44,152 bases of DNA from Candidatus Zambryskiibacteriota bacterium. Lineage in GTDB: Bacteria; Patescibacteriota; Minisyncoccia; Phycocordibacterales; WO2-35-19. The stretch spans positions 1 through 44,152 of the forward strand of contig QILQ01000048.1 in the NCBI GenBank assembly GCA_003233455.1. Direction: 5' to 3'. Position numbers and translations under genes: made by a program. Each line of letters begins with the position of its first letter. The stretch's first letter is position 1. The notes beneath the pieces were generated by a model. That model did not search any database, was not told the origin of the DNA, and saw only the letters and a list, made by a program, of their open reading frames with translations. Of this stretch, positions 38,854 through 40,592 are shown piece by piece.

Positions 38854-39120
38854 TTATACTTTATTTTCTTTACTAAAGAATTCCTTTAATCTTTTTCCTA
38901 CTAATCTTCTACCTTGAGTAGTTTTTAAATATCCTTCCCTTCTTTTACTATCATTTTTATTCAAACAGGCTTCATAATAAATAAGCTTCCAGGGCTTATA
39001 TCTTTTAGTAGAAGGAGTTACACCTTTATTATGTTCTACTAATCTACGTTTTAAATCATTAGTTCGTCCAGTATAAATTTCCCCATTTTTTTCACTTTGT
39101 AAAATATAATTATAAAACAT
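38854..39120 (-). CDS. GIY-YIG domain endonuclease-like protein
   Basis: 88 residues, a single GIY-YIG domain: YNYILQSEKNGEIYTGRTNDLKRRLVEHNKG carries the Y-x-L/Y ... I-Y-T-G pair and the catalytic Arg. The distal Glu is probably in KRREGYLKTTQGRRLVGK. The UPF0213-type single-domain proteins of this size are common in Patescibacteria and their role is unknown; DNA repair or mobility are both possible. It lies next to the MITE-like element, which may or may not be meaningful. Confidence 0.87.
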   Translation of the reverse strand: MFYNYILQSEKNGEIYTGRTNDLKRRLVEHNKGVTPSTKRYKPWKLIYYEACLNKNDSKRREGYLKTTQGRRLVGKRLKEFFSKENKV

Positions 39121-39149: not shown

Positions 39150-40592
39150 TTACTTAATTATTTTTTTCAGAGCTATAATCAGTTTATCTAAGTCAGTTTT
39201 TTTAGTATCACGACCGAGAGTAAAGCGAAGAGAAGATGAGGCGCATTCCGGTTTACCTAAACTTTCAATAACATAAGAGCTATTTTCCAACGAGAGAGTA
39301 TGACAGGCCGAAGCGGCCGAAACAGCAAAACCAAGAGTATCTAATTTAATAACAAGAAATTCCGAATTTAAAGGGTCACCCTTTGGGGCAAAATTCTTCA
39401 AGGGTGACCCTTGGGAACCAAAAGCCAAAGGCAGTTCTCTCGAGGTAGGAATCTTCAAGAGTAACTCTTGGGATTGGGAACCAAAAGCCAAGGGCAACCC
39501 TTGAACTGCCCCTGCCCCAAAGGGTTGCCTTTGGCTTTTTCCAAAACAAATATTTATATTATTCGGCAATCTGTTTTCTAAATCACCATTAAGTGAAGAA
39601 TTCGGAATTTCTTTTAAAATTTTAGAGATAGCGTAGTCGCGTAATTTCGTTAAACGCAACGACTCTTTCTCTCTCATTTTAACGGTTATTTCTAAAGCCT
39701 TAGCCAAACCGACCGCGCCAACCACATTTTCTGTCCCCGGTTTTAAACCTCTTTCTTGTCCTCCGCCAAAAATAATAGGAGAAATGTTTGTTCCATTTTT
39801 AACTACCAAAATTCCCATCCCTTTTGGTCCATATATTTTAATACCGTCAAAAATAAGCAAGTCAGCTCCTAATCTTTCCAGAGAAACTTTTTCATAAGCG
39901 ATACTTTGACCAGCATCAACCAAAAAATATGGTTCCACCAAAGGCTTATTTTGTACAAGGTTTAACCTTGTATTTTTTTTGTATTCTTTGATTATTTTTG
40001 AGATTTTTTGAATTGGTTGTATTGTCCCGATTTCACTGTTTGCATGTTGAACTATCACCAAAACAGTATTTTCTTTTATTTCTTTTTTTATTGATTCTGG
40101 ACTAATAATTCCTTTTTTATTCGGAGCAACAAAAGAAACTTCTATTTTTTTTTCTTTGAGTAAATATTTTATTGGTTCCAAAACAGCCGAATGCTCTATT
40201 AAAGAAACTATTATATGAGAAATTAAAGGGTCACCCTTTGGGGCAAAATTCTTCAAGGGTGATCCTTGGGAACCAAAAGCCAAGGGCAACCCTTGAACTG
40301 CCCCTGCCCCAAAGGGTTGTCCTTGATTTCTGATAACACCTAAAATGGCAATATTTAATGACTCAGTGCCACCACTGGTAAAAAATATCTCACTGGCGCG
40401 ACAACGCAACAAGCGAGCTATTTTTATTCTAGCTTTCTCTAATGTTTCTTTGGTTATCTCTCCTTCTGTATGCAAAGAAGAAGGATTAGCCCAAAATTTT
40501 TTTTGGGTTTTTTCCATTTCTTTCGCCACTTTATAATCAATCGGTGTAGCCGCAGCGTAGTCTAAAAATATTCTTTGAGTTATTTTTTTCAT
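39150..40592 (-). CDS. Cysteine desulfurase with two in-frame palindromic-repeat insertions
   Basis: 480 residues; NifS/IscS-type enzymes are about 385-400. The start YLDYAAATPI-like (FLDYAAATPIDYKVAKEM), FTSGGTESLNIAILGV, IEHSAVLEPIKYL, the PLP-lysine segment DGIKIYGPKGMGIL (Lys near 250, with Ile for the usual His), GGGQERGLKPGTENV and the catalytic-cysteine segment SAASACHTLS (near 428) are all present, so it should release sulfur from cysteine for Fe-S or thio-tRNA synthesis. Two extra segments, after LGVIRNQ and after NICFGKSQR, repeat the same peptide theme (PFGAGAVQGLPLAFGSQ, GSPLKNFAPKGDPL) and are encoded by hairpin repeats. They add about 34 and 54 residues. Confidence 0.9.
   Translation of the reverse strand: MKKITQRIFLDYAAATPIDYKVAKEMEKTQKKFWANPSSLHTEGEITKETLEKARIKIARLLRCRASEIFFTSGGTESLNIAILGVIRNQGQPFGAGAVQGLPLAFGSQGSPLKNFAPKGDPLISHIIVSLIEHSAVLEPIKYLLKEKKIEVSFVAPNKKGIISPESIKKEIKENTVLVIVQHANSEIGTIQPIQKISKIIKEYKKNTRLNLVQNKPLVEPYFLVDAGQSIAYEKVSLERLGADLLIFDGIKIYGPKGMGILVVKNGTNISPIIFGGGQERGLKPGTENVVGAVGLAKALEITVKMREKESLRLTKLRDYAISKILKEIPNSSLNGDLENRLPNNINICFGKSQRQPFGAGAVQGLPLAFGSQSQELLLKIPTSRELPLAFGSQGSPLKNFAPKGDPLNSEFLVIKLDTLGFAVSAASACHTLSLENSSYVIESLGKPECASSSLRFTLGRDTKKTDLDKLIIALKKIIK
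39370..39532. repeat. In-frame palindromic repeat insertion B in the desulfurase gene
   Basis: About 163 bp made of linked small palindromes such as AAGGGTCACCCTT, CAAGGGTGACCCTTG and CAAGGGCAACCCTTG. It contains all of copy A plus a 63-bp extra block that ends in the repeated GGGAACCAAAAGCCAA. The reading frame is the same as in copy A. Confidence 0.85.
40225..40325. repeat. In-frame palindromic repeat insertion A in the desulfurase gene
   Basis: About 101 bp nearly identical to the outer parts of copy B (differences include T for C in AAGGGTGATCCTT). It begins and ends with the AAGGGT..ACCCTT type palindromes. GC-richness contrasts with the surrounding AT-rich gene. Confidence 0.85.

Follow-up and report, generated by a model that had tools for sequence, protein, structure and literature searches.

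We found that the two long insertions in the cysteine desulfurase gene of Ca. Zambryskibacteria, a tiny uncultured groundwater bacterium, probably (at roughly 0.8) represent a REPIN/RAYT-type mobile system with repeats that proteins tolerate as inserts. The gene lies in a contig stretch of 44,152 nucleotides, referred to as the window. For comparison we used the 736-kb home genome (G000), seven congeners (G001-G007) and one genome of the same family (G008).

The 480-residue open reading frame was identified by a PF00266 match (class-V aminotransferase/cysteine desulfurase, E 8e-51); its best relatives in the PDB were IscS, and a structure search returned IscS and Nfs1 as best matches (E 1e-38). 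Relative to solved IscS and the seven congeneric orthologues, the protein has extra residues at about 89-124 and 353-408, and a smaller set at about 206-222. The first-pass annotation had described two in-frame inserts of about 34 and 54 residues made of near-identical palindromic DNA. Both are indeed in frame, with lengths closer to 36 and 56 residues, and they have 70-nt and 60-nt blocks in common with a DNA identity of 96-97%. In the AlphaFold model, pLDDT was mostly above 90 and fell below 50 within the inserts (residues 96-111 and 358-404), and the inserts are thus predicted to form disordered loops on an intact fold, as the protein modelling proposed earlier was meant to reveal. Downstream of the desulfurase, a short open reading frame on the minus strand (window 38880-39120) reads like a GIY-YIG endonuclease-type protein. 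The features of the gene are given below, where R1 denotes a covariance model built from dispersed copies of the element.

39150..40592, minus strand: cysteine desulfurase (NifS/IscS-like), 480 aa, host of the elements; from PF00266, IscS relatives and fold
40221..40328, minus strand: insert 1, residues ~89-124, two opposed hairpin doublets; from orthologue alignment and pLDDT
40274..40332, plus strand: doublet 1a, type-I loop (GAACTGCCCCTGCCCCA); R1 match, 73.5 bits, E 7e-18
40218..40275, minus strand: doublet 1b, loop GAAGAATTTTGCCCCA; R1 match, 58.6 bits, E 1.8e-13
39954..39972, strandless: 19-nt palindrome TACAAGGTTTAACCTTGTA, third short insert (residues ~206-222); from sequence and alignment
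39369..39536, minus strand: insert 2, residues ~353-408, two doublets flanking a decayed palindrome; from orthologue alignment and pLDDT
39482..39540, plus strand: doublet 2a, type-I loop, 20-nt arms with 1 mismatch; R1 match, 79.7 bits, E 1.1e-19, and hairpin
39456..39470, strandless: decayed palindrome CAAGAGTAACTCTTG between doublets 2a and 2b; from sequence, repeat family D1
39363..39420, minus strand: doublet 2b, loop GAAGAATTTTGCCCCA; R1 match, 61.9 bits, E 1.9e-14
Inserted peptide segment, example: AVQGLPLAFGSQ; from sequence

The inserts are thus palindromic, as first described, but their composition had to be revised to two opposed units in insert 1 and two units plus a decayed palindrome in insert 2, and the third small insert was added. 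With up to one mismatch, AAGGGTNACCCTT occurred at 6 sites in the window, all in the desulfurase, against 0.10 expected, and no shuffle reached 6; the exact motif occurred at 12 sites in the whole genome, versus 0 for the reversed control. The segment 39483-39539 was the sole strong intragenic hairpin found in the window. As anticipated, alignment with close homologues revealed clean empty sites. The insert-1 site was empty in four congeners (G001, G002, G004 and G006) and held one unit in G003 and two in G005, while the insert-2 site was empty in G002 and G006, held a single unit in G003, and another short sequence in G001, G004, G005 and G007.

The element is a 45-59-nt hairpin in which each arm is itself palindromic (CAARGN5CYTTG). 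Aligned copies run from a foot through one such arm and a loop of 12-17 nt to the complementary second arm. The core pairs vary between copies (GTCAC/GTGAC, GCAAC/GTTGC, ACTGT/ACAGT), yet match within any one copy. In the long hairpin, 11 of 19 pairs showed changes on both sides, with a covariation of 0.332 against 0.149 in shuffled alignments and at most 0.094 when slid, and energies reached -40 kcal/mol. A main fold of two small hairpins was rejected; it pairs well, but its covariation is below that of the long hairpin. Single 29-nt units (GTCAAGGGGAACCCTTGAC) exist beside the doublets. The covariance-model search suggested by the first-pass annotation yielded, for the home genome, about 30 doublets together with about 10 single units; in the congeners it gave at least 20 matches in each of G003, G005 and G007, one each in G001 and G004, and none in G002 or G006. 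G008 gave 22 matches with other loops, and 287 sampled genomes of the phylum gave weaker matches only, many with identical CAAGG/CCTTG arms. Hence, the genome holds many other copies, and the close homologues do not all carry the same segments. The element had no match in Rfam, and the exact type-I core was not found in IMG/VR, where we looked for a viral carrier. An assembly artefact is unlikely because metagenome-assembled genomes from different projects have the same sites occupied.

We then considered where the copies lie. Among the 87 copies examined, 54 sit within an open frame 110 or more codons long. The hosts, named from sequence, are some twenty conserved enzymes, including LepA, DusB, TopA (three sites), LigA, ValS, RecO, RecG, Fpg, TsaD, RsmA (two sites), PriA, GatB, MiaA, CysS, ArgS, MnmA and the desulfurase; UvrA and UvrB were added in relatives. 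Intragenic copies occurred in either orientation and in several reading frames, and all those examined kept the frame and were free of stops. No gene-breaking copy was found; among the copies scored as intergenic two were flagged, and both turned out to be junctions between different genes. Flush empty sites were present in genus orthologues of the desulfurase, RecO, TsaD, RecG, Fpg, GatB, DusB, TopA and others, with a net gain of about 9-20 residues per unit. These many copies, in-frame sites in core genes, empty orthologous sites and disordered inserts bear out the earlier proposal of a protein-tolerated palindromic family analogous to the palindromic elements (RPEs) of Rickettsia.

Some sites may have been used repeatedly or had their element replaced. 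PriA, LigA, ValS and DusB each have one site that carries different or oppositely oriented elements across species (loci L082, L105 and L131 in PriA; L015, L104, L128 and L138 in LigA; L012, L127 and L130 in ValS); therefore, tolerated sites are scarce, or else a resident element draws in another. We did not accept paired changes at orthologous sites as proof of selection, because several sites have replaced or reversed elements, so that co-evolution and replacement are inseparable there. In distant members of the order, in-frame CAAGG/CCTTG palindromes were seen in genes that read as TopA (L340, G236) and ArgS (L071, G051), the TopA copy falling in a region where the home genome has one of its own TopA sites.

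The candidate movers are encoded in the same genomes. Y1 transposase genes (PF01797) were present in all 8 genomes of the genus, ten of them in the home genome, and, across the phylum, in 68 of the 143 genomes sampled. Most of the genus proteins are 205-235 residues long and have an H-I-Y-N-R-G motif and an HUH motif, with the tyrosine helix visible in the alignment. Their sole NCBIfam match was REP_Tyr_transpos (E 4e-20 to 3e-12), at 46-72 bits, which is below the curated cut-off of 80; a search of the RAYT protein against PDB sequences gave no match at E 0.01. Most of these genes have a palindrome 18-75 nt upstream, often with a matching one at or just past the stop codon. Under a strict test requiring paired palindromes with a common 10-mer, 10 of 26 RAYT genes were flanked, compared with 1 of 310 other genes (Fisher p 1.3e-11). 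Some RAYT genes had no paired palindrome by this test, and it missed several more pairs because the downstream palindrome overlaps the gene end. Some clade-B genes (L251, L254, L248, L242) end inside the downstream palindrome, and their C-termini (VSKGAFDI.., VSKTVFDI.., MSRLNLDI) are therefore element-encoded.

In the RAYT tree each clade had its own palindrome, and two clades had the same cores as the dispersed copies: clade A with CCAAGGN5CCTTGG or ACAAGG..CCTTGT, and clade B with GTCAARGN5CYTTGAC. The same foot types recur among the dispersed copies, GTC-footed copies making up 20 of 70 in genomes with a clade-B RAYT versus 0 of 17 in those without (p 0.009). The core of the 19-nt palindrome TACAAGGTTTAACCTTGTA in the desulfurase is that of the repeats bracketing a clade-A RAYT gene (G000:C8:1843-2490), and R1 found a doublet outside its training set 23 nt upstream of the home-genome RAYT gene G000:C8 (E 2.5e-9). 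Among the 14 R1 matches listed for other families of the order, in the non-genus genomes searched for RAYTs, 6 had a RAYT gene no more than about 200 nt away. A further RAYT clade (MRYENFAP..) was seen in 6 of 8 genomes, several times at a seemingly fixed position; a conserved TACTAAACGCTCAGCGTC-type hairpin lies on its upstream side only (L241, L250, L261, L265, L266, L267), and the clade looks domesticated.

We propose that the inserts are short, non-autonomous REPIN-type elements, in which two inverted palindromes surround a 12-17-nt spacer and could fold as one long hairpin or as two small ones. They would most likely be moved in trans by the RAYT-like Y1 (HUH) single-strand transposases of the same genome. 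The step can be pictured from REPINs: a RAYT that recognises the palindromes on single-stranded DNA would cut out or copy the doublet and place it at a new site. Insertions into genes would survive only if their length and frame keep the protein readable, which would explain why the surviving copies are in frame, stop-free and in loops. Presence and absence between species, read from the genomes, suggest transposition, which may be recent or ongoing and for which we infer that RAYTs are responsible. The open frames suggest that the inserted segments are translated, and they are presumably neutral. What speaks against this reading is that there are tens of copies rather than hundreds, that the GTAG tag of classical REPs is missing, that some RAYT genes are without a strictly paired palindrome, and that the RAYT scores stay below the NCBIfam cut-off.

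An unlikely alternative is that replication errors, by template switching at quasi-palindromes, together with spread by recombination, produced the hairpins and kept them perfect with no dedicated transposase, RAYT proximity being secondary. The better match of arms within a copy than from copy to copy is in its favour, as are orthologous sites whose elements differ by paired changes (RecG in G003 and G007, desulfurase site 2). However, it leaves unexplained both the common loop and core at about 30 unrelated loci and the clade-wise matching palindromes around RAYT genes. We consider a regulatory RNA role, in which selection in mRNAs conserves the hairpins as attenuators or stability elements, highly unlikely. 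Their energies down to -40 kcal/mol, strong arm covariation and numerous intergenic copies would fit such a role, but they are missing from most orthologous genes of the same genus, occur in both orientations and several frames, and have no Rfam match.

Translational bypass, in which the ribosome skips the segments as with the byp elements of Magnusiomyces mitochondria, would agree with hairpins within conserved genes of many functions. It is very improbable here, since all examined intragenic copies are in frame and stop-free, and bypassing would require neither. Least probable of all is a role as signals for DNA uptake or chromosome organisation, with point selection rather than insertion spreading the repeats; they are palindromic and genome-wide, but the copies are net insertions relative to orthologues, and their cores vary.

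The REPIN/RAYT-type reading also places the family among known systems. In REPINs, two inverted REPs with compensatory changes form a doublet that accompanies RAYT genes (Bertels and Rainey, 2011; PMC3116915). Like them, the present element is an inverted palindrome doublet with a spacer, a long-hairpin or two-hairpin fold and compensatory changes, with a different repeat type beside each RAYT and singlets as well as doublets. Unlike them, it has no GTAG tag, its unit is nearly fully palindromic, and it numbers tens of copies; moreover, REPINs were described as extragenic (PMC3116915), whereas more than half of the copies examined here are intragenic. A classical GTAG REP was rejected, with GTAG at one foot in only 4 of 87 copies, as was a CGTC REP of the RPE-4 and RPE-6 kind, with CGTC at one foot in only 3 of 87; the extragenic position of classical REPs likewise did not apply. 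A dispersed inverted-palindrome hairpin doublet, a genome-encoded RAYT and a RAYT-flanking repeat were all found. We therefore concluded that the family works like REPIN/RAYT and is RPE-like at the protein level.

TIRtrons, whose tyrosine transposases (TIRYTs) have long inverted repeats on both sides (Di Nocera et al., 2013; PMC3733652), are similar in that a RAYT-like gene is bracketed by inverted repeats other than GTAG REPs, some of them self-complementary, and in forming small dispersed families, in dimers. They come from other phyla, however, and the intragenic elements of that study are GTAG and CGTC REPs, whereas RAYT clades A and B here have dispersed intragenic copies. Those intragenic REPs, often dimers of 20-30 residues, lie in frame in UvrA, DNA ligase, tRNA synthetases and others (PMC3733652); ours resemble them as in-frame copies in core genes and differ in sequence, tags and phyla. 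Rickettsia RPE-4 and RPE-6 are CGTC REPs without a dedicated transposase (PMC3733652). The likeness to RPEs, compared by description only, lies in in-frame palindromes in protein genes of a reduced genome with the host protein predicted to stay intact; here, unlike in RPE-4/6, a RAYT carries the same palindrome. The first-pass analogy with RPEs therefore stands, but REPINs and their RAYT transposases come closest, given the matching palindromes on either side of RAYT-like genes. Its suggestion of an undescribed family holds for the family, which appears new, and not for the kind, as intragenic REPs in conserved genes are known (PMC3733652). Candidate-phyla bacteria go unmentioned in a later survey of the transposase superfamily (PMC6006769). 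Our literature search, in which subscription journals were thinly covered, found nothing on RAYT, REPIN or in-frame palindromes in these bacteria, and neither the lineage, nor the untagged palindrome type, nor a transposase link for protein-inserted palindromes appears to have been described.

Protein-inserted palindromes such as RPEs and intragenic REPs have so far had no clear mover; as the same palindromes bracket transposase genes here, the mover becomes testable. A streamlined genome, expected to purge insertions, thus tolerates mobile DNA in genes of replication, repair and translation, and this DNA adds disordered segments to conserved enzymes. The odds seem about even that Patescibacteria have many RAYT clades, each with its own palindrome, that in-frame entry of REPIN-like copies into core genes is routine, and that copies of other types or orientations later take their place at the same tolerated sites. 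If so, a transposase would have given rise to protein-inserted palindromes such as RPEs, and transposition of palindromes would be a route by which the proteins of minimal genomes acquire disordered segments. For annotators, some unexplained protein insertions in candidate-phyla bacteria would be accounted for.

Two minor observations concern other repeats. Other GC-rich palindromes lie in frame in core genes, such as a perfect TTTTCCGCCAGAGGCGGATCCGCCTCTGGCGGAAAA in RecG of G007 (L133, ARGGSASGG) and, in the home genome, those in RsmA (L097, LPAGGQ), LigA (L015, LPTGGQ) and ValS (L012, PPAGGG); they probably form a second, unrelated protein-tolerated family. At four intergenic loci of the home genome (L005, L006, L011, L016), a subtype with asymmetric feet (CCAGAGGGTGACCC.. 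/ CCCCAAAGGGCAACC..) adjoins another repeat, CTCTCCTTAYTAAGGAGAGG.
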